From positions 1 to 64,000 of the forward strand of contig NZ_FLQX01000145.1 of assembly GCF_900089955.1 (NCBI RefSeq): DNA of 64,000 bases, written 5' to 3'. Positions 50,467 to 63,114 of the stretch are shown piece after piece. The notes beneath the pieces were generated by a model, which ran no database searches, was not told the origin of the DNA, and saw only the letters and a program-made list of their open reading frames with translations. Every line of letters starts with the position of its first letter. Within the stretch, counting starts at the first letter, position 1. The translations under genes were made by a program, and so were the position numbers. This DNA is from Candidatus Accumulibacter aalborgensis (GTDB taxonomy: Bacteria > Pseudomonadota > Gammaproteobacteria > Burkholderiales > Rhodocyclaceae).

Positions 50467-52494
50467 TCACTCGAACCCGGCCGCCGGTCCGACAAGGCGA
50501 CGCGCTGCGCTCACGATGCTCGCGACGTTGATGGCGAAGAATTCGTAGAGTTCCGCCGCCGGGGCGGACTCGCCAAAACGGTCGATACCGACCACGGCAC
50601 CGTTGCTGCCGACGTACTTCCACCACAGATCGGGATGTCCGGCTTCGACGGCGACGACCGGCAGTGACGGCGGCAGCACCTCGTGTCGGTAAACCAGCGA
50701 CTGCAGATCGAAGCGACGCGTGCAGGGCATCGACACGACGCGGGCGGCGATCCCTTCCTGCCGCAGAACGGCCTGTGCCTCGACGGCCAGCTTCAGTTCC
50801 GAGCCGGTCCCGATCAGCACGATGGCTGGCGTGCCGCCGTCCGCCTCACCCAGAACATAGCCGCCGCGCCCGATGCTGCCGATTTGTTCGGCGCTCCGCT
50901 GCAGTGCCGGCAGGTTCTGCCGCGAGAGCAGCAAGCACGAGGGGCCGTCCCGCCGTTCGAGCGCCGCGGTCCACGCCACCGCAGTCTCCATGGCGTCCGC
51001 CGGGCGCCAGACATCGAGACCCGGGATCAGGCGCAGCGAAGCTGCATGCTCGATCGGCTGGTGCGTCGGGCCGTCCTCGCCAAGACCGATCGAGTCGTGC
51101 GTATAGACCATCAAGTGACGGAGCTTCATCAGCGCGGCCATGCGAATGGCGTTGCGCGCGTAGTCCGAGAAGACCAGGAAGGTCGCGGTATAGGGAATGA
51201 AACCACCGTGCAAGGCCAGTCCGTTGGCGATCGCCGTCATGCCGAATTCGCGCACGCCATAATTGACGTAATTGCCACCGGCATGGCGATTGGCGGACCG
51301 CGTACCACTCCAGTCGGTCAGGTTCGATCCGGTCAGGTCGGCCGAGCCGCCGAGCAACTCGGGCAACGCCGGAGCGATGGCTTCGATCACGTTCTGCGAA
51401 GCCTTGCGGGTCGCCACAGCGTTCGTCTGAGTGGACAACTGGTCGACCAGGGCGGCGACCCGGTCTTGCCAGTCAGTCGGCAGATCACCCTGCATGCGAC
51501 GTTCAAACTCGGTCGCCAGATCGGGATAGGCGGCACGATAGGATGCGAAAGCCGTGGCCCAGCTTTGCTCGGCGGCTTCTCCCCTGGCCCTTGCATCCCA
51601 GCCACTGCGAACGTCGTCCGGGATTTCGAAGGCGGCAAACGGCCATTCGAGCTGGCGACGGGTATTGGTGACTTCACCGGCACCCAGCGGGGCACCGTGA
51701 ACGTCGTGGCTGCCGCCCTTGTTCGGCGAGCCGTAACCGATCATCGTCTTGCAGCAGATCAGCGTCGGCCGCCCGGTCTGGGTCCTGGCGATGCGAATCG
51801 CCGCCTCGATCGAATCGACATCGTGACCGTCACAACGATGTACCACGCGCCAGCCGTAGGCCTCGAAGCGCTGCGGCGTATCGTCGGCAAACCAGGGTTG
51901 CACGTGGCCGTCGATCGAAATGTCGTTGTCGTCGTAGAAGACGATCAGCTTGGCCAGCGACAGACGGCCGGCCAGCGAACAGACCTCATGCGAAATTCCT
52001 TCCATCAGGCAGCCATCGCCGATAAAGGCGTAGGTGTAGTGGTCGACCACCTTGTGCCCATCGCGGTTGAAGGTCTCGGCGAGCAGACGCTCGGCCAGCG
52101 CCATGCCTACCGCATTGGCCAGACCCTGACCGAGAGGCCCGGTCGTCGTTTCGACGCCGGGAGTCACTCCCAGTTCGGGGTGCCCCGGGGTCTTTGAATG
52201 CAACTGCCGGAAGCGTTTGAGTTCCTCGATCGGCAGGTCGTAACCGGAAAGATGCAGCAGGGCATAGATCAGCATCGACCCGTGCCCGTTGGACAGTACG
52301 AAACGGTCGCGGTCAACCCAGCCGGGATTCGCCGGATTGTGCTTCAGGTGGCGGCGCCAGAGAATTTCGGCGATGTCGGCCATTCCCATCGGCATCCCGG
52401 GGTGTCCGGAGTTGGCCGCCTGGACGGCGTCGATGGCCAGGAAGCGCAGCGCGTTGGCGCAGCGGCGGCGGAACTTGCGGGATTCGGTGGGCAA
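50467..52494 (-). CDS. cbbT: Transketolase (Calvin cycle/pentose phosphate)
   Basis: The 675-residue thiamine diphosphate enzyme exchanges two-carbon units between sugar phosphates. The diphosphate site is in [23 protein letters not shown] and [14 protein letters not shown] lie earlier, the central [19 protein letters not shown] and [19 protein letters not shown] follow, and the C-terminal lobe is complete. The TTG at 52494 is chosen because AAGGAG lies six bases upstream; an ATG at 52551 would start inside a MITE-like repeat. It lies last in the leftward fbp-prk-tkt series, so cbbT is an appropriate name. Confidence 0.94.
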
Positions 52495-52540
52495 GAAACT
52501 CTCCTTCAAACGGTCATGACTTGGCAAGACACCCGTGATC

Positions 52541-52628
52541 ATGAAAGTCATGACCGTTTCCCTCTCCCCCGACCCCTCTCCCGCAAGCAGGAGAGGGGAG
52601 CTTCGCGAGTCGCTGAGGTGACTTTCAT
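52541..52628 (-). repeat. 88-bp MITE-like dispersed repeat (copy B) between prk and tkt
   Basis: Read on the minus strand this matches the element at 46117-46204 over its whole length, with ATGAAAGTC at both ends in inverted orientation and the same internal palindrome. It lies between prk and tkt, so it forms part of the cbb transcript or a terminator within it. Confidence 0.85.
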
Positions 52629-52677: not shown

Positions 52678-53553
52678 TCAGCGCGCACGGCGCTTCTTGT
52701 CCATCAACTGCATGATCATCGGCGTGAAGATGATCTGCATGGCGAGACCCATCTTGCCGCCAGGGCAGACGATGATGTTCGGCCGCGACATGAAGGAGTT
52801 GTGCAGCATGCTCAGCAGGTAAGGAAAGTCGATGCCCTTCGGGTTGGCAAAACGAATCACCAACATGCTTTCGTCTTGCAAGGGAATATCCTCGGCAATG
52901 AACGGGTTCGAGGTATCGACCGTCGGCACTCGCTGGAAATTGACGTGCGTCTGGGAAAACTGCGGACAGATGTAGTTGATGTAGTCCGGCATTCGCCGCA
53001 GGATCGTGTCCATCACCGCTTCGGTCGAGTAGCCCCGCTGCCCCTTGTCGCGGTGGAGCTTCTGGATCCACTCCAGATTGATGATCGGGACGACACCGAC
53101 GCACAGGTCGACATAACGCCCGACATCGACTGATTCGGTCCTGACGCCGCCATGCAGGCCTTCGTAGAAGAGCAGATCGGTATCGGCCGGGAGATCGGAC
53201 CATTCGGTGAAAGTGCCCGGCGGTGAGCCATACTTCTCCGCTTCGGCGTCGTCGTGAACGTAGTGGCGACTCTTGCCTTGCCCCCTTTCGCCGTATTCGC
53301 GGAACAGACCTTCGAGTTCGGCCAGCAGGTTGGCCTCGGGTCCGAAGTGGCTGAAATGATGGTCACCGGCGAGGCTTTTCTCGGCCATCCTCTCGCGCAT
53401 TTCCAGGCGGTCGTAGCGGTGAAAGCTGTCGCCCTCAATGATCGCGGCGTTGACCTTCTCGCGCCGGAAGATGTGTTGAAAGGCGCGGGTGACCGAGGTC
53501 GTTCCGGCGCCCGAGGAGCCGGTAATCGCGATGACGGGGTTCTTGATCGACAT
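52678..53553 (-). CDS. cbbP: Phosphoribulokinase
   Basis: The 291-residue kinase makes ribulose 1,5-bisphosphate from ribulose 5-phosphate and ATP. The P-loop is GSSGAGTTSVTRAF near residue 12, followed by AIIEGDSFHRYDR, the GKSRHYVHDDAEAEKYG segment, and LFYEGLHGGV with the catalytic-region acidic residue. Length fits the proteobacterial class I enzyme. It follows fbp after 54 bp and precedes tkt. With fbp and tkt it indicates a Calvin cycle; no RuBisCO gene is in the window. Confidence 0.95.
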   Translation of the reverse strand: MSIKNPVIAITGSSGAGTTSVTRAFQHIFRREKVNAAIIEGDSFHRYDRLEMRERMAEKSLAGDHHFSHFGPEANLLAELEGLFREYGERGQGKSRHYVHDDAEAEKYGSPPGTFTEWSDLPADTDLLFYEGLHGGVRTESVDVGRYVDLCVGVVPIINLEWIQKLHRDKGQRGYSTEAVMDTILRRMPDYINYICPQFSQTHVNFQRVPTVDTSNPFIAEDIPLQDESMLVIRFANPKGIDFPYLLSMLHNSFMSRPNIIVCPGGKMGLAMQIIFTPMIMQLMDKKRRAR

Positions 53554-53607: not shown

Positions 53608-54690
53608 TCAATCGTCGCGGAACAGGGTGCGCGTCGAAAAGAGCGGCGACCGGAATGGCTGGTCCTCGCCGGTTTCATGTTCCCGGTGATAGCGTTCGAT
53701 GCGTTCGACTTCATCGCGCGAACCGAGTATCACCGGCACCCGCTGGTGCAGGCTGGTCGGTTGTACGTCGAGAATACGTTCGTTGCCGGTCGACGCCAGA
53801 CCGCCGGCCTGACCGACGATCATGGCCATCGGATTGGCTTCATACATCAGACGCAAGCGTCCGGGTCGGGACAAGTCCTTGCTGTCGCGCGGGTACAGGA
53901 AAACGCCTCCGCGCATCAGAATGCGATGGACTTCGGCGACCATCGACGCCACCCAACGCATGTTGAAGTCCGTCTCGCGAACGCCGGTCTTGCCTGCCAG
54001 ACACTCGGCGACGTAGCGCTGAACCGGCTTTTCCCAGAAACGCTCGTTGGAAGCGTTGATCGCAAACTCGCGGGTCTCCGGCGAGATGACCAGATTGGGA
54101 TGGGTCAGCAGAAACTCGCCGATGTTGCGATCGAGCGTAAAACCGTGCGTCCCGTTGCCCACGGTCAGCACGAGCATCGCCGACGGGCCATACAGCGCGT
54201 AGCCGGCGGCAACCTGCCGGCTGCCAGGCTGCAGAAAATCAGCCGCGGTCGGCTCGCCGCCACTGCCATTCTCGGGGCAGCGCAAGACGGAAAATATACT
54301 GCCGACCGACAGGTTGACGTCGATGTTCGACGAACCGTCGAGCGGGTCGAACACCAGCAGGTACTTGCCGCGCGGATTTTCGGCTGGAATCGGGTAGATG
54401 TCGTCCATTTCCTCGGACGCCATGGCAGCCAGGTGGCCACCCCACTCGCAGTGATGAATGAATGCCTGGTTGGCCAGCACATCGAGTTTCTTTTGCGCCT
54501 CGCCCTGCACGTTCTCACTGCCCTGATCGCCGAGCACACCCGCCAGCGAGCCACGCGAGACGCCCTGTGCAATCGCCTTGCAGGAACGAACGACATCGCT
54601 GATGAGCATCGAAAAATCGCCGGCCAGCGCCGGATTCCGGCGCTGCTCCTCGATCAGGAACTTGTTGACATTGGTGCGTCCGCATAGCAT
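53608..54690 (-). CDS. cbbF: Fructose-1,6-bisphosphatase class I
   Basis: The 360-residue enzyme converts fructose 1,6-bisphosphate to fructose 6-phosphate. The metal and phosphate site is [13 protein letters not shown] near residue 115, [12 protein letters not shown] is near the N-terminus, and MLCGRTN starts the protein. It heads the leftward cbb series. The upstream region contains a TTA-N8-TAA LysR-type sequence at 54790-54803. The symbol reflects its location; the gene is also called fbp. Confidence 0.95.
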
Positions 54691-54789
54691 GGCGATACTC
54701 CTGGCGATGAAACTCTCGTTGGTCCAAAGATTGACCCGATTCTAGTGCTCTGATGCAAAAACGCTAGTTAAACATATTGTTCATTTTCG

Positions 54790-54808
54790 TTAAGAAAACC
54801 TAATCAAT
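54790..54808. promoter_or_regulatory. Candidate CbbR-binding sequence upstream of cbbF
   Basis: TTA-AGAAAACC-TAA at 54790-54803 fits the TNA-N7/8-TNA form of CbbR sites, and AATCAAT follows at 54802-54808. The latter heptamer is also the half-site at 62195-62201 upstream of cbbR. Function is inferred from sequence only. Confidence 0.4.
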
Positions 54809-54823
54809 AAGAAACACACCATC
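54801..54823. repeat. Direct repeat flanking the restriction-modification module, left copy
   Basis: TAATCAAT-AGAAAC-ACCATC type sequence matches 62194-62217 at 21 of 24 aligned positions in the same orientation. The right copy contains the start of cbbR. The pair encloses the hsd operon. Confidence 0.5.
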
Positions 54824-54928
54824 ATCACTTGCGCTGGCGAAGATAGCGGGTGCTGAACACAGAAACGCGGGAAAACTTCGCCGATGTGGCATGCTTGCAG
54901 GCTGGCATGCCAACCGATAACAGCAATG

Positions 54929-54947
54929 ATCCTAGAAACCTCTGTTG
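54929..54947. repeat. 19-bp inverted repeat, left arm
   Basis: ATCCTAGAAACCTCTGTTG is the exact reverse complement of 55079-55097. The 131 bp between the arms hold two further palindromic stretches of the common CCTTCGACA...GCGAACGG type. Confidence 0.9.
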
Positions 54948-54959
54948 ATGACACGAGAG

Positions 54960-55066
54960 CCCTTCGACACGCCCGCTACGCGGGCTGCTCAGGGCGAACG
55001 GAAGCTCACCCGTTGGGTGAGCCGAAAAAATCCCGTTCGTGCTGAGCCTGTCGAAGCATGAACGGG
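54960..55066. repeat. Palindromic REP-like sequence between inverted repeat arms
   Basis: CCCTTCGACACG and the GCTCAGGGCGAACGG part on the left recur as CCGTTCGTGCTGAGC and CTGTCGAAG on the right. This is a widespread intergenic repeat type in GC-rich bacteria. It lies upstream of hsdM. Confidence 0.7.
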
Positions 55067-55078
55067 ACTTTCCCCCGC

Positions 55079-55097
55079 CAACAGAGGTTTCTAGGAT
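55079..55097. repeat. 19-bp inverted repeat, right arm, overlapping the hsdM start
   Basis: CAACAGAGGTTTCTAGGAT carries the hsdM ribosome site and the first bases of its ATG (55096). It pairs with 54929-54947. Confidence 0.9.
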
Positions 55098-56649
55098 GAT
55101 CGACGACCTCAAGAAGACCCTGTGGGCCACGGCCGACAAGCTGCGAGCCAACATGGACGCGGCTGAATACAAGCACCTGGTCCTCGGCCTGATCTTCGTC
55201 AAGTACATCTCCGACACCTTCGCCGCCCGCCGGGATGAGTTGACCCGGCGCTTTGCCGACACCTCGGACGAATACTTCCTGCACGACGTAGACGACGAAC
55301 TCCTGGCCGAAGAACTGGAAGACCGCGATTACTACAAGGCAGTGAACGTCTTCTGGGTTCCCGAAACCGCCCGCTGGGAGAAGCTGCGCGCTGCCGCCAA
55401 GCAGCCGGACATCGGCAAGCGCATCGACGATGCGCTGACCATCGTCGAAACGGAAAACCCCAGGCTCAAGGGAATCCTCGACAAGCGCTACGCGCGCGCC
55501 CAGTTGCCCGACGGCAAGCTCGGCGAACTGGTCGATCTGGTGTCCACCATCGGCTTCGGCGACGACCCCGGCCAGGCGCGCGACGTGCTCGGGCAGGTCT
55601 ATGAATACTTCCTCGGCCAGTTCGCCAGCGCCGAAGGCAAGAAAGGCGGCCAGTTCTACACGCCGGCCTCCATCGTCAAGACGCTGGTCGCGGTGCTCGC
55701 CCCGCACCACGGCAAGATCTACGACCCCTGCTGCGGCTCCGGCGGCATGTTCGTGCAAAGCGAAAAGTTCATCGAAGCGCACGGCGGCAAGCTGGGCGAC
55801 GTGGCCATCTACGGGCAGGAATCCAACCCGACGACGTGGCGGCTGGCGGCAATGAACCTCGCCATTCGCGGCATCGACTTCAACCTCGGCCGCGAACCCG
55901 CCGACACCTTCACCCGGAACCAGCACCCGGATCTCCGCGCCGATTTCATCCTCGCCAATCCGCCGTTCAACGTCAGCGACTGGTGGCACGGCAGCCTGAC
56001 CGGCGACCCGCGTTGGGAATACGGTGACCCACCCGCCGGCAACGCCAACTACGCCTGGTTGCAGCACATGCTCTACCACCTGAAGCCAACCGGCCGCGCC
56101 GGCATCGTTCTGGCCAATGGCTCGATGAGTTCGAGTCAGAACAGCGAAGGCGAGATCCGCCAAGCGATGGTCGAGGCCGACGTAGTCGAGGTGATGATCG
56201 CCCTCCCCGGCCAGCTCTTCTTCAACACCCAGATCCCCGCCTGTCTGTGGTTCCTCTCCAGGCAGAAAGCTGCCCGTCCGGGGGAAGTGCTGTTCATCGA
56301 CGCCAGGAAGCTGGGCCGCATGATCAGCCGGGTGCAGACGGAGTTTACCGATGAAGTCATCGACCGCATTGCCGGCACCGTCGCTGCCTGGCGTGATGAG
56401 GCGGACGCCGATGACTATGAGGACATCCCTGGCTACTGTCGCAGCGTGAATTTGGCCGAGATCGCCGAACATGGCCACGTCCTTACTCCTGGGCGCTACG
56501 TGGGTGCGGAGGCCGTCGAAGACGATGGTGAGCTCTTCGCCGAGAAGATGCTGAAGCTGACCGAGAAGCTGGGCGAACAGATGGCCAAGGGAGCGGAACT
56601 CGATGCCTTGATCCGGAAGAAGCTGAGGGGGCTGGGGTATGAGTTCTGA
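55096..56649 (+). CDS. hsdM: Type I restriction-modification system methyltransferase subunit HsdM
   Basis: The 517-residue protein is an N6-adenine methyltransferase. An HsdM N-terminal helical domain (1-140) starts [21 protein letters not shown]. The SAM motif is [12 protein letters not shown] near residue 208, preceded by [15 protein letters not shown], and the catalytic NPPF motif is [12 protein letters not shown] near 285. Residues 430-517 form a helical tail that contacts HsdS. The start at 55096 follows AGAGG in the inverted repeat. HsdS begins inside its last codons (11-bp overlap). Confidence 0.96.
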
Positions 56650-57961
56650 GCCTGTTCGGTCACTCCGAGACTTTGTTAGCCTGCAACGCGGTACAACCTA
56701 CAAGGGGAATCTGGTTGGTTTGCCAGGTCCCGTTTTGCTTGGATTGGCATCAATAGAGGCTAATGGCGGGTTCCGTCATGGAGGATTCAAAACATACGGA
56801 GGCGATTGCCCTGAGAAGATTTCGCTGAAATCGAGCGACTTGTATGTGTCGCTAAAGGATGTGACCCAATCAGGAGACTTGCTTGGGTCCGTATCACGGG
56901 TTCCTGCTGAAATTAAATCTGGGCGCCTGACACAAGACACAGTCAAGCTGGTTTTCGACGGCCTCCAGATTAAAAGAGAGTACATCTACTGGCTGCTGAG
57001 AACTCCTAATTATCGTGAATACTGCCGTGGTTGCGGGACCGGCACTACAACACTTGGCTTAGCTCGGGACGACTTCCTCAACTATACCGTCCCCCCTCCA
57101 ACTCCGGCGGACCTTGTGCTAGTGGAGGTACTTGAGGGGGTTGAGAAGCGCATCACCCTCCTGCGTGAAACCAACGCCACTCTCGAAGCCATTGCACAGG
57201 CGCTGTTCAGATCATGGTTCGTCGATTTCGATCCTGTCCACGCCAAGCAGCAAGGGCTTGAACCGGAAGGGATGGACGAGACTACCGCCGCACTATTTCC
57301 TGACAGCTTCGAGGAATCTGAACTTGGCTTGGTGCCACGGGGGTGGCGGGTGGCCCCATTTGGGGATGTCGTCGACAGCGTTGGTGGCGGCACACCTGAC
57401 ACGAAAGAGCCAAGCTATTGGCAACCCGGTGTGTATTGCTGGACGACTCCCAAGGATTTGTCTGGTATTCAAGTCCCGGTATTGCTGACCACCGAACGTA
57501 AAGTCTCAGCCAAGGGATTGGCGAAGGTGAGTTCAGGACTTTTGCCGGCAGGCACGCTTCTGATGTCTTCGCGCGCGCCCATTGGCTATCTTGCCATTAC
57601 GGACATTCCCTTGGCGATCAATCAGGGTTACATCGCCATGCGGCCCAATAGCGAATTACCGCCTCTGTACATGTTGTTTTGGTGTAAGGAGAACATGGAG
57701 GTAATCAAGAGACGAGCCAATGGCTCGACGTTCATGGAAATCAGCAAGAAATCATTCCGCCCAATTCCTGCACTCGTGCCCTCGACGCCAGTGATAGCTG
57801 CGTTTATTGGTATAGCGGGCGCCCTGTTTGAGCGCTTGGTCGAAAATGAGAAACAGGCCCAAACCCTTTCCACCCTCCGCGACACCCTGCTCCCCCGCCT
57901 GATCTCCGGCCAACTGCGCCTACCGGAAGCGGCGGCGATACTTGAGGAGGCGACCGCATGA
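56639..57961 (+). CDS. hsdS: Type I restriction-modification specificity subunit HsdS
   Basis: The 440-residue protein has two target recognition domains, about 5-160 and 230-390, each followed by a conserved helical spacer. The first spacer is [29 protein letters not shown], and the second ends [20 protein letters not shown]. It determines the DNA sequence methylated and cut; the site cannot be read here. The first TRD has markedly lower GC than the rest, as expected from domain exchange. The gene overlaps hsdM by 11 bp and its stop overlaps the next start (ATGA). Confidence 0.93.
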
Positions 57962-59016
57962 CACCGACCCCGCCCGCCCTGCCCGAGGGCTACGCCGACT
58001 GGCTAAAGCAACTCAAGAGCGACATCGCCCGCGCCCAGCAGCGCGCTGCGCTGGCGGTCAATGGCGAACTGGTACAACTCTACGGCCGCATCGGCCGCGA
58101 CATTCTGCTGCGGCAGGAGGCGCAGGGCTGGGGGGCGAAAGTGATCGACCGGCTGGCCAATGACCTGAAAGATGCTTTCCCGGACATGCGTGGCTGGTCG
58201 TCCAGCAACCTCAAGTACATGCGGTTTTTCGCCCAGCATTGCCCGGAGGGCCGATTTGGTCAGCAGCCTGCTGACCAATTGCCGTGGTTCCACATTGTGA
58301 CCCTGCTGACCAAACTGGAGACTGCTGCCGACCGTGAATGGTACGCCGGACAGGCGGTGCAGCAGGGCTGGTCGCGCACGACGCTGGAACTGAGCATCAG
58401 GAACCGCCTGCGTCAACGCCAGGGGGCTGCGGTGAGCAATTTCATCGCGCGTTTGCCGTCGCCGGATTCGGCGCTGGCGCATGACACCCTGAAAGACCCG
58501 TATCTGTTCGATTTTCTCGGCCTGGGTGACGACGCGCAGGAGCGCGAGATCGAGTCCGGGCTGATTCGCCACATCACCCGCTTCCTGCTAGAACTGGGCG
58601 CCGGCTTCGCCTTCGTCGGCCGGCAATTCCGGCTCGAAGTAGCTGGTGACGAGTTCTTCATCGACCTGCTCTTCTACCACACTCGCCTGAAACGCTACGT
58701 GGTGGTCGAACTGAAGGCCACCGCTTTCAAGCCGGAACACGCAGGCCAACTCAATTTTTACCTTTCCGCCGTCGATGCACAGATCAAGGCGGAGGACGAC
58801 AAACCGACCATCGGCCTGTTGCTGTGCAAGCAGCAGAACCGACTGGTCGCGGAATACGCGCTGTCCGGCATTGAAAAACCCATCGGCGTGGCCGAATACC
58901 AGTTGCTGCGCGACCTGCCGGAGACTCTGGGGCGCAATCTGCCGAGCATTGCCGAGATTGAAGCGGAATTGGCTGGCGAACTGGGTGAGAGCGGTGAGGT
59001 GAACGAACCGACATGA
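57958..59016 (+). CDS. DUF1016 (YhcG-type) PDDEXK nuclease-family protein
   Basis: The 352-residue protein has an N-terminal DUF1016 helical domain (about 10-160; [14 protein letters not shown] and [14 protein letters not shown] are typical) and a C-terminal PDDEXK-like nuclease domain (about 175-330). The catalytic elements are [12 protein letters not shown] and [23 protein letters not shown]. Members occur within or beside type I restriction systems; their role is unsettled. It is coupled by overlapping starts and stops to hsdS and hsdR, so it is made as part of the system. Confidence 0.9.
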
Positions 59017-62000
59017 GCGAAGACCAGCTCGAACGGGAAGCCCTTGGCTGGCTGGCCGAGGTCGGTTACACGCCGCTGCGCGGCCTGGACATTGCCCCCG
59101 ATGGCGTCCGCCCGGAGCGCAGCGACTACCGGCAGGTGCTGTTGCGGCAACGCCTGCGGGCGGCGATCGGTCGGCTGAATCCGGGCATTCCTGCAGCGGC
59201 GCGTGAGGAGGCCCTGAAACAGCTGGTCGATCTCGGCATTCCTTCCCAACTCGCCGCCAACCGGCGTTTCCACCAACTGCTGGTGGCGGGGGTTCCCGTG
59301 CAGTATCAGAAAGACGGGGAAACACGGGGTGACTTCGTGCGGCTGATCGACTGGGCCGAAGCGAAGAAAAACGAGTGGCTGGCAATCAACCAGTTCTCGA
59401 TCAAAGGCCCGCAGCACACCCGCCGGCCGGACATCATCCTGTTCGTCAATGGCCTGCCACTGGTCCTTCTGGAGCTGAAGAACCCGGCCGACCAGAACGC
59501 CGACATCTGGAAAGCCTACAACCAGATTCAGACCTACAAGGAACAGATCCCCGACGTTTTCCAGTACAACGAGCTGCTGGTCATAGCCGATGGCAGCGAA
59601 GCACGGGCAGGTTCGCTATCCGGTAATGCCGAGCGTTTCATGCAGTGGCGCACCATCGACGGCGTCATGCTCGACCCGCTGGGGCCGTTCAACGAGCTGG
59701 AAACCCTGGTCCGCGGCCTGCTCGCCCCGGCCATTCTGCTCGACTATCTGCGTTTCTTCGTGCTCTTCGAGGACGATGGCACAACGCTGATCAAGAAGAT
59801 CGCCGGCTATCATCAGTTCCACGCCGTGCTGGCCGCCATCGTTCAGGTGGTGACGGCGTCGCGTCCCGGCGGCAGCCAGAAAGGGGGCGTCGTGTGGCAT
59901 ACCCAGGGCAGCGGCAAGAGCATCACCATGATCTGCTTTGCTGCCCGAGTCATGCGTGAAGCGGCGATGGAGAACCCGACAATCGTCGTCATCACCGATC
60001 GCAATGATCTCGACGGGCAGTTGTATGGCGTCTTTTCGCTGGCCCATGACCTCCTGCGTGAGCAGGCGGTACAGGCTGAAACGCGGCATGATTTGCGTGC
60101 CAGACTGAGTAATCGGCCTTCGGGCGGTATCGTCTTCGCCACCATCCAGAAGTTCATGCCCGGTGAGGATGAAGACACTTATCCGCTGCTCTCCGATCGC
60201 CACAACATTGTCGTGATTGCCGACGAGGCGCACCGCACGCATTACGGTTTCTCGGCGGAGATGAAGCTGGTCAAGGCACCACAGGGTGTTCAGGAAGCCC
60301 CGATCAGTGCTCTGACACGCTATCAGGTCGGCTACGCCCAGCACCTGCGCGATGCGCTGCCCAACGCCACCTTCGTGGCCTTCACCGGCACGCCGGTATC
60401 CCTGGAAGACCGAGACACGCGTGCCATTTTTGGCGACTACATCCACGTCTACGACATGCAGCAGGCCAGGGAGGATGGCGCTACGGTTCCCATCTACTTT
60501 GAATCGCGTCTGGCCAAACTGGCATTGAAGGCAGAAGACTTTCCGCAGATCGACGCCGATGTCGATGAACTCGCCGAGGACGAAGAAGACAGCCAGAAAG
60601 CCAGGCTGAAGAGTCGCTGGGCCGCACTGGAGAAAGTGGTCGGTACAGAACCGCGTATCGCCAGCGTCGCTGCCGACCTGGTGGCGCACTTCGAGGAGCG
60701 CAACAAGGCACAGACCGGCAAGGCGATCATCGTCGCCATGAGTCGTGAGATTTGCGTCCATCTCTACGACGAAATCATCAAGCTGCGCCCGGATTGGCAC
60801 GATGCCGACCCGGAGAAAGGCGCCATCAAGATCGTCATGACTGGATCGCCCAGCGACAAAGCGATGCTGCAACCCCATCTCTACAGCGCTCAGATCAAAA
60901 AACGACTGGAGAAACGCTTCAAGGACCCCATGGACCCCCTGCGGCTAGTCATCGTGCGTGACATGTGGCTGACCGGATTCGACGTTCCGTGTGCGCATAC
61001 GCTCTACGTCGACAAGCCGATGAGGGGCCACAACCTGATGCAGGCGATTGCCCGCATCAACAGGGTGTTCAAGGACAAGCAGGGCGGACTGGTGGTGGAC
61101 TACATCGGCATCGCCAACGAGCTGAAGAGTGCCCTGAAGGAATACACCACCAGCAAAGGTCGAGGCCGACCAACAGTCGATGTTCATGAAGCCTATGCCG
61201 TTCTCGAAGAAAAGCTCGACGTGCTGCGGGCACTGTTGCACGGCTTCGACTACAGCGATTTTCTGACGGCAGGCCATAAGCGGCTGGCTGGCGCCGCCAA
61301 CCATGTGCTGGGACAGAAGGATGGGAAGAGACGTTTTGCCGATACGGCTCTGGCCATGAGCAAGGCATTCTCCCTTTGTTGCACACTGGATGAGGCCAAG
61401 GCCGTTCGCGAAGAAGTCGCCTTCTTCCAGGGCGTCAAGGTGTATCTGACCAAGCCTGATATCAGCCAGAAGAAAAAGACTGATGTAGAGCGTGAACTGG
61501 CTATCCGCCAGATCATCGGCTCGGCGGTGGTGTCGGAAGAAGTCGTCGACATCTTCAATGCTGTCGGGCTCGACAAGCCGAACATCGGCATCCTTGATGA
61601 AGCCTTCCTTGCCGAAGTGCAGAACCTGCCGGAGCGCAATCTGGCGATTGAACTTCTGGAGCGGCTGCTGGAAGGCGAAATCAGGTCCCGCTTTGCCGGC
61701 AACATCGTGCAGGAGAAGAAATTTTCCGAACTTCTGGCCAACGTCATCACGCGCTACCAGAACCGGGCCATCGAGACGGCACAGATCATCGAAGAACTGA
61801 TCGAGATGGCGAGGAAGTTCAAGGCAGTCGCCGAGCGGGGGGACGAACTGGGTCTCACGGAAGACGAAATCCGCTTCTACGACGCACTGGCCAACAACGA
61901 ATCAGCCGTGCGCGAACTCGGCGACGAGACGCTCAAGAAAATCGCCCATGAACTGACCGCGAACCTGCGCCGGAACCTGAGCGTCGACTGGTCGCAGCGA

Positions 62001-62135
62001 GAAAGCGTGCGCGCCAGGCTACGCCTGATGGTCAAGCGCATCCTGCGCAAGTACAAATACCCGCCGGACCAACAGGAGTCGGCGGTGGAACTCGTCCTGC
62101 AACAGGCGCAAGCCTTGGGCGAAGCATGGCTGTGA
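59013..62135 (+). CDS. hsdR: Type I restriction-modification endonuclease/translocase subunit HsdR
   Basis: The 1040-residue protein has the RecB-like nuclease motif [19 protein letters not shown] near 140-160. The translocase P-loop is [12 protein letters not shown] near 300, the DEAH-type box [11 protein letters not shown] near 405, and motif III AFTGTPV near 455. The second RecA part is [12 protein letters not shown] with the [10 protein letters not shown] motif VI. The C-terminal helical region after 850 should contact HsdM. It overlaps the DUF1016 gene by four bases and ends the operon. All motifs are intact, so the system is predicted to be active. Confidence 0.95.
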
Positions 62136-62181
62136 GGGCTGCAGTGGCCGCCGAAAGTCGGCACGACCTCACGTGGCGTCC

Positions 62182-62201
62182 ATTGATTCTCGATAATCAA
62201 T
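62182..62201. promoter_or_regulatory. Inverted repeat at the cbbR start (candidate LysR-type site)
   Basis: ATTGATT and AATCAAT are exact complements separated by six bases, and overlap the cbbR ATG at 62200. Such a site could serve autoregulation by CbbR. Confidence 0.5.
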
Positions 62202-62217
62202 GAGAAACGCCACCATC
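62194..62217. repeat. Direct repeat flanking the restriction-modification module, right copy
   Basis: It contains the first codons of cbbR and matches 54801-54823 near fbp. See the finding on the inserted module. Confidence 0.5.
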
Positions 62218-63114
62218 CGGCAACTGCAGATTTTCTCGGTGGCCGCCACCCATCTCTCGTTTGCCCGGGCGGCGGAGAAACTACATCTGACGCACGCTGC
62301 CATCTCGTTGCAGATCAAGCAACTGGAGGAAGTCTCCGGGGCACTGTTGTTCGAGCGGATCGGCAGACGCGTCTTTCTGACCGAGGCGGGGGAAATCCTC
62401 CTTGACCATACGCGCCAGATCCTGCAGTCACTGAAGGAAGCAAACGAGGCGCTGCTGGCGCTGAAGGGGCTGCGCGGCGGACGCATCGCCGTTGCGGTCG
62501 CCAGCACTGCCGAGTACTTCGCGCCGGGACTGCTCGCCGAGTTTCGCAAGGTGCAGGCCGACGTGCGTATCCGCCTGGTGATCGACAACCGCGACACGGT
62601 GAGCCGCCTGCTCGCCGGCAACGAGGTGGATCTCGCGATCATGGGTCGACCGCCCGCCGGACTCGACGCCACGGCCGTCGCCTTTGCCCCGCACCCGCTG
62701 GTGATCGTGGCCAGTGCGGACCATCCCTTGAGCAAACTACCCAATGTCGCCGTCGAAGACCTCGAAAGCGAAACGCTGATCGTTCGCGAAACCGGGTCGG
62801 GGACGCGCTCGGCAATGGAAGAGTTCTTTCACGAGCGTTCGATCAAACCGCGCATCGGAATGGAGATGGCCAGCAACGAGGCCATCAAGCAGGCGGTTAT
62901 CGCCGGGCTGGGCATCAGCTTCATATCCCAGCACACGCTGGGACTCGAACTGAGCGCCGAGCGTCTGACCATCCTCAAGGTCGAGGGAACGCCGGTGATC
63001 CGCCGCTGGCACATCGTCCGCCACAAGAGCAAGCACCTGACCCCCGCCCTGGCCGCGTTCTGGGACTTCGTCCTCGAGTTCGCTCCGGGTTATCTGAGAA
63101 AGCTGGTCTGCTGA
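62200..63114 (+). CDS. cbbR: LysR-family regulator, CbbR type
   Basis: The 304-residue regulator has a winged helix-turn-helix at 1-60 (LTHAAISLQIKQLEE) and a substrate-binding domain. The second domain carries CbbR hallmarks: IAVAVASTAEYFAPGLLAEF, VDLAIMGRPPAGLD, and the late ETGSGTRSAMEEFF with MASNEAIKQAVIAGLGISF. CbbR proteins activate the cbb operon in response to metabolites. In typical loci they diverge directly from the cbb genes. Here a 7.2-kb restriction module lies between. The 65-bp upstream region holds an inverted repeat that overlaps the ATG. Confidence 0.88.
   Translation: MRNATIRQLQIFSVAATHLSFARAAEKLHLTHAAISLQIKQLEEVSGALLFERIGRRVFLTEAGEILLDHTRQILQSLKEANEALLALKGLRGGRIAVAVASTAEYFAPGLLAEFRKVQADVRIRLVIDNRDTVSRLLAGNEVDLAIMGRPPAGLDATAVAFAPHPLVIVASADHPLSKLPNVAVEDLESETLIVRETGSGTRSAMEEFFHERSIKPRIGMEMASNEAIKQAVIAGLGISFISQHTLGLELSAERLTILKVEGTPVIRRWHIVRHKSKHLTPALAAFWDFVLEFAPGYLRKLVC

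Follow-up and report, generated by a model that had tools for sequence, protein, structure and literature searches.

Comparative analysis of a 64,000-bp window, the whole stretch of Candidatus Accumulibacter aalborgensis DNA analysed here, indicated that a 7.37-kb type I restriction module entered one Accumulibacter lineage at the start codon of cbbR, co-directed with this gene. In this reading, to which we assign a probability of about 0.8, a 24-bp target was duplicated, the control region stayed with fbp and cbbR lost its promoter. By comparison with relatives, the duplication of the target including the start codon restored the cbbR reading frame on the far side of the module, and the divergent control region with its predicted CbbR operator was left whole beside fbp-prk-tkt. 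Deprived of its own promoter, cbbR would probably be transcribed via the hsd genes, and the left start codon, being out of use, would have decayed. The insertion is known from one draft genome, an assembly of 4.7 Mb in 181 contigs.

Table 1. Features of the cbbR locus, with positions in the window
Feature	Position	Strand	Remarks
tkt	50467-52551	-	
prk	52678-53553	-	
fbp (class 1 fructose-bisphosphatase), leads fbp-prk-tkt	53608..54690	-	NCBIfam NF006779 above cut-off; Pfam FBPase
Ancestral control region between divergent fbp and cbbR, complete	54691..54800		Aligned to 26 relatives
Predicted CbbR operator	54767..54798	+	Best genus-matrix match, 46.0 bits
Left target copy, decayed cbbR start (putative)	54801..54823	+	TAATCAATAAGAAACACACCATC, 23 bp, ATG now ATA
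Inserted segment, 7370 bp	54824..62193	+	Missing here in 26/26 relatives
MITE-like repeat, 165 bp, at hsdM start	54931..55095		ATGAT flanks at 54926-54930 and 55096-55100
hsdM, methyltransferase subunit	55096..56649	+	Pfam N6_Mtase, HsdM_N; PADLOC MTase_I
hsdS, specificity subunit	56639..57961	+	Pfam Methylase_S; PADLOC Specificity_I
yhcG/DUF1016, PD-(D/E)XK nuclease-type	57958..59016	+	Pfam YhcG_C, DUF1016_N; PADLOC PDC-S02
hsdR, restriction subunit	59013..62135	+	TIGR00348 above cut-off; Pfam HSDR_N; PADLOC REase_I
Right target copy, intact	62194..62217	+	TAATCAATGAGAAACGCCACCATC, 24 bp; cbbR start codon at 62200
cbbR, LysR-type regulator	62200..63114	+	LysR Pfam domains; fbp neighbour in relatives

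The module is filled by four co-directed genes, hsdM, hsdS, yhcG and hsdR, each overlapping the next (Table 1). The gap from the fbp start to the hsdM start is 405 bp, and that from the hsdR end to the cbbR start is 64 bp. HsdM, HsdS and HsdR are encoded together, as expected of a type I restriction-modification system. The NCBIfam hsdM model and one hsdS model matched below their cut-offs, and the Pfam models matched above theirs; Methylase_S was found once in HsdS (residues 233-382), and the PADLOC models cover nearly the whole protein. In the host genome, Rubisco is located on a different contig from the window.

The cbbR gene was searched for in 28 genomes of the genus at a threshold of E 1e-60. 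It was found in 27 of them (the host and 26 others), with no match in G021 at this threshold, and the host cbbR was the sole match in its own genome. In all 26 other genomes with cbbR, fbp adjoins it divergently at a distance of 112-125 bp. These 26 empty sites indicate an insertion of about 7.37 kb specific to this lineage, in agreement with the original prediction that a type I restriction module had come between formerly adjacent divergent genes. The comparison that it had proposed, with relatives carrying no hsd genes at this place, recovered both the undivided fbp-cbbR region and the breakpoints. Among 80 named loci, a set that overlaps with the genus genomes and is not independent of them, 39 carry a cbbR with 70% or more identity to that of the host, and fbp adjoins cbbR at 112-125 bp in 35 of these 39. 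The 35 include one locus (L096) in which fbp matches only as two poor pieces, and in two loci the upstream stretch is too short to judge adjacency (95 bp in L089 and 214 bp in L093). In L095 and L099, whose cbbR is 71% identical, the upstream neighbour is a gene other than fbp, co-directed with cbbR, which we take to be DedA-like in the former and leuA-like in the latter. Where cbbR identity is 46-55%, the arrangement mostly differs from the fbp-cbbR pair. Relatives that have no hsd genes and keep cbbR apart from fbp, named beforehand as evidence against the insertion, were thus encountered only among distant loci, namely these two and many of those at 46-55%.

Both junctions could be placed by the likeness to these relatives. 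The fbp side is colinear with them across the intergenic region and on into the opening codons of cbbR, and the likeness stops at about position 54823; on the cbbR side, it starts at 62194, six bases before the ATG, so that the two sides overlap by 24 bp. Here, TAATCAATAAGAAACACACCATC and TAATCAATGAGAAACGCCACCATC align as a direct repeat with 21 matches, two substitutions and one gap. The local alignment score was 17, against a maximum of 11 over 5092 other tile/strand comparisons within the window. The 24-position direct repeat with 21 matches that had been pointed out earlier is therefore real, and it marks the insertion event. The 24 letters of the right copy are identical in a relative with an empty site (L029), and the left copy sits where the cbbR start sits in 26/26 relatives, which attributes the repeat to homology. 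The direct repeats thus correspond to a sequence that is single in the empty site, as in insertion with long target duplication. The left copy differs by the change of ATG to ATA, one further substitution and a 1-bp deletion. Judged by these alignments, the repeat arose by duplication of a 24-bp target that carries the cbbR start codon.

Rather than a decayed duplicate, the left copy could be a site recognised by a site-specific recombinase and derived from the donor. Integration of this kind by a trans-acting recombinase, with the 24-bp repeats as attachment sites and the left copy partly donor-derived, would fit the direct repeats that exactly flank the module and the restoration of the target gene. 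This explanation is nevertheless unlikely, given that no recombinase is found among the four module genes and that the module ends are not common to the relatives' modules. The left end (54826-54945) had no match in the 27 other genus genomes, and the right end (62130-62196) had none in these genomes except for 25 bases in G009 (E 0.006). No terminal inverted repeats were found at the module ends, where the best local score of 6 was reached by 929 of 1000 shuffles; their absence agrees with insertion with long target duplication.

An assembly chimera, in which hsd genes of a different locus or organism had been wrongly joined here, might be suspected in a draft of this many contigs, all the more as the arrangement was seen in one genome only. 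It is highly improbable, however: both junctions lie inside a single 99-kb contig, the repeat copies differ and one of them is decayed, fbp and cbbR share their best-matching relative (L011), and the genome is listed as 100% complete and 0.2% contaminated.

The intergenic region was aligned with those of the 26 relatives. At positions 54741-54800, the host keeps 22 of the 23 columns with 90% or higher conservation and has the relatives' majority base at 49 of 60 columns; single relatives have it at 40-53, each being counted in its own consensus. Since the break lies beyond the control region, this region is undivided. The whole ancestral intergenic sequence has remained with fbp, and cbbR has retained about 6 bp of leader. 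Because the region stays with fbp-prk-tkt at the ancestral distance, the control of these genes should be unchanged, provided that it functions as predicted.

An operator matrix of 32 positions was built from the 26 relatives, with the host window left out. Over the 64 kb, it gave one strong match of 46.0 bits, the predicted operator of Table 1, and a runner-up of 2.8; on the cbbR side (62100-62210), the best score was -18.5. These results support the presence of the predicted operator only on the fbp side. The published CbbR consensus, which is TNA-N7-TNA in the available part of its source (PMC2942843), matched twice on the fbp side (54781-54793 and 54791-54803), once before cbbR (62184-62196) and 55 times on the forward strand of the window, and its counts around either junction do not exceed those of shuffles. 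Of the CbbR-like sites reported on both sides in the original prediction, the one at 54790-54808 is the edge of the conserved predicted operator and can be upheld; the one at 62182-62201 scores no higher than -18.5 with the genus matrix and cannot. It had further been proposed that the control region was split by the insertion, with a working CbbR site kept in each half. The single consensus match before cbbR does lie in a perfect 7-bp inverted repeat (62182-62201), but only the right arm, AATCAAT, derives from the old leader and the left arm comes from the insert. As the ancestral intergenic sequence is entirely on the fbp side, with the conserved columns kept as above, a split control region is very unlikely and that proposal was abandoned.

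Upstream of Rubisco, the matrix was scanned in 25 of 27 matched loci, the host genome included and two partial genes left out. The best match was on the opposite strand in 25/25 loci, with at least 10 bits in 18 and at least 8 bits in 21 of them. The background, 532,434 other bases from which the fbp-cbbR intergenic regions and cbbR starts were excluded, gave a single match of at least 8 bits (L069, 8.5). The Rubisco-upstream regions (L153-L177) contain a conserved element with a GTTTAACTTTTAATAATC-like core; other sequence intervenes in some species, and the match in L165 is displaced relative to the common element. Because the element lies anywhere between about 75 and 1025 bp before the Rubisco start, its role there is putative. 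The occurrence of a related element before Rubisco supports the name cbbR. The gene product has Pfam HTH_1 and LysR_substrate domains above the cut-off, and the best NCBIfam model was CbbR (NF045990), with 275.3 bits against a cut-off of 450; given this score, the name rests on context. Divergence from Calvin-cycle genes with a shared predicted operator is present in 26/26 relatives and absent in the host window itself.

The host cbbR is intact. Its median dN/dS was 0.078 against 25 relatives (the set without G009) and 0.082 among the relatives, values in which part of the history predates the insertion, and the gene apparently is still under selection without relaxation. In G009, cbbR (L036) is in two pieces with residues 65-176 missing, either by an internal deletion or by an assembly fault. 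The gene in the host seems to be cut off from its native promoter, which would now face hsdM. Terminator-like sites on the forward strand were found neither in 54600-55200 nor in the hsdR-cbbR gap. Consensus scans recognised no promoter at either junction, and since they also missed the native one, these scans do not decide the matter. As the hsd genes face cbbR, no forward-strand terminator-like site intervenes and the old promoter faces hsdM, transcripts of cbbR most likely come through the hsd genes and start either at a promoter of these genes or at the former cbbR promoter.

A 165-bp repeat lies at the start of hsdM. It had 17 matches in the host genome, partial pieces included, of which 11 were nearly full-length copies with at least 85% identity, itself included (the other copies are L188-L197). 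The 5-bp flanking repeats were perfect in seven of nine copies inspected by eye and agreed at four of five positions in the other two. The repeat is short and multicopy, with terminal inverted repeats and a target-site duplication, as is characteristic of MITEs. Since the flanking duplication ATGAT is the beginning of hsdM, which begins at the same place in G011, G023 and G027, the MITE-like insertion too restored a start codon. The predicted RNA fold of this stretch has -98.7 kcal/mol (z -9.5) with the hsdM start at the foot of the stem, and the long hairpin possibly damps hsdM translation. It is conceivable, though rather doubtful, that the module, entering co-directed at the cbbR start, captured the cbbR promoter and that hsdM-hsdS-yhcG-hsdR-cbbR forms one transcription unit under the CbbR operator, in which restriction would follow the carbon-fixation status, CbbR would control its own gene across 7.4 kb of defence genes and the MITE hairpin would damp translation.

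Relatives of hsdR with 81-83% protein identity were found in G011, G023, G025 and G027, none of them beside cbbR. Among these four genomes, DNA identity was 89.7-93.5% for hsdR, 77.4-83.3% for cbbR and 79.6-85.7% for fbp. Vertical inheritance of the module was rejected on this ground, and the higher likeness of hsdR than of cbbR or fbp indicates that the module moves between species. The host hsdR has 77.2-78.4% DNA identity to those of the four genomes, and the G+C content of the module is 0.599, compared to 0.620 for positions 1-54700. A closer donor in the class was also sought in 369 genomes with at most two candidates scored in each; the best full-length hsdR match outside the host genome was 77%, and this candidate origin was discarded. 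The same scan gave an 82% match in G155 over residues 435-1039. An attempt to find an empty site for the G027 module, the single module so treated, matched its flank in 3 of 28 genomes, G027 included. No yhcG was found at E 1e-10 in six other module loci, which does not make the system unusual; in L149, about 1.2 kb of other sequence lies between hsdS and hsdR, in the yhcG position. An hsdR gene close to cbbR was seen a second time, possibly by coincidence, on a short Rhodoferax MAG contig (L113, 4678 bp) that carries in a row a Rubisco gene, cbbR, a 126-aa frame and hsdR.

The locus offers a base-exact case of a defence module that entered a metabolic regulator without destroying it, with the start codon restored and the operator whole beside its targets. 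It makes testable whether a LysR regulator without its divergent promoter still controls carbon fixation and whether a restriction operon comes under a metabolic promoter. The components are ordinary outside this lineage, and the event is a clear instance of a type already known. The literature searched gave no description of hsd genes at cbbR, and its coverage was partial, so absence from print is not established; in the available part of PMC5506194, the mention of hsdR is a strain genotype.

The gene families of hsdM, hsdS and hsdR and their overlapping order on one strand are like those of type I restriction-modification systems with YhcG/DUF1016. For restriction-modification genes, insertion with long target duplication was reportedly described by Nobusato et al. 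in 2000. As far as the available part of PMC3031569 goes, genome comparisons have revealed restriction systems that insert with long, variable target duplications. The present event is likely a member of this class. As in the cases outlined there, a recombinase-free module is flanked by direct copies of a target of which relatives have only one; the present case differs in its type I module, in its target, the start codon of a regulator, and in the decay of one copy. The Accumulibacter relatives resemble Acidithiobacillus ferrooxidans, in which cbbR diverges from cbb genes and shares an operator with them (PMC2942843), in that their cbbR and fbp diverge around an operator-like element; in the host, 7.4 kb of hsd genes lie between cbbR and this element.
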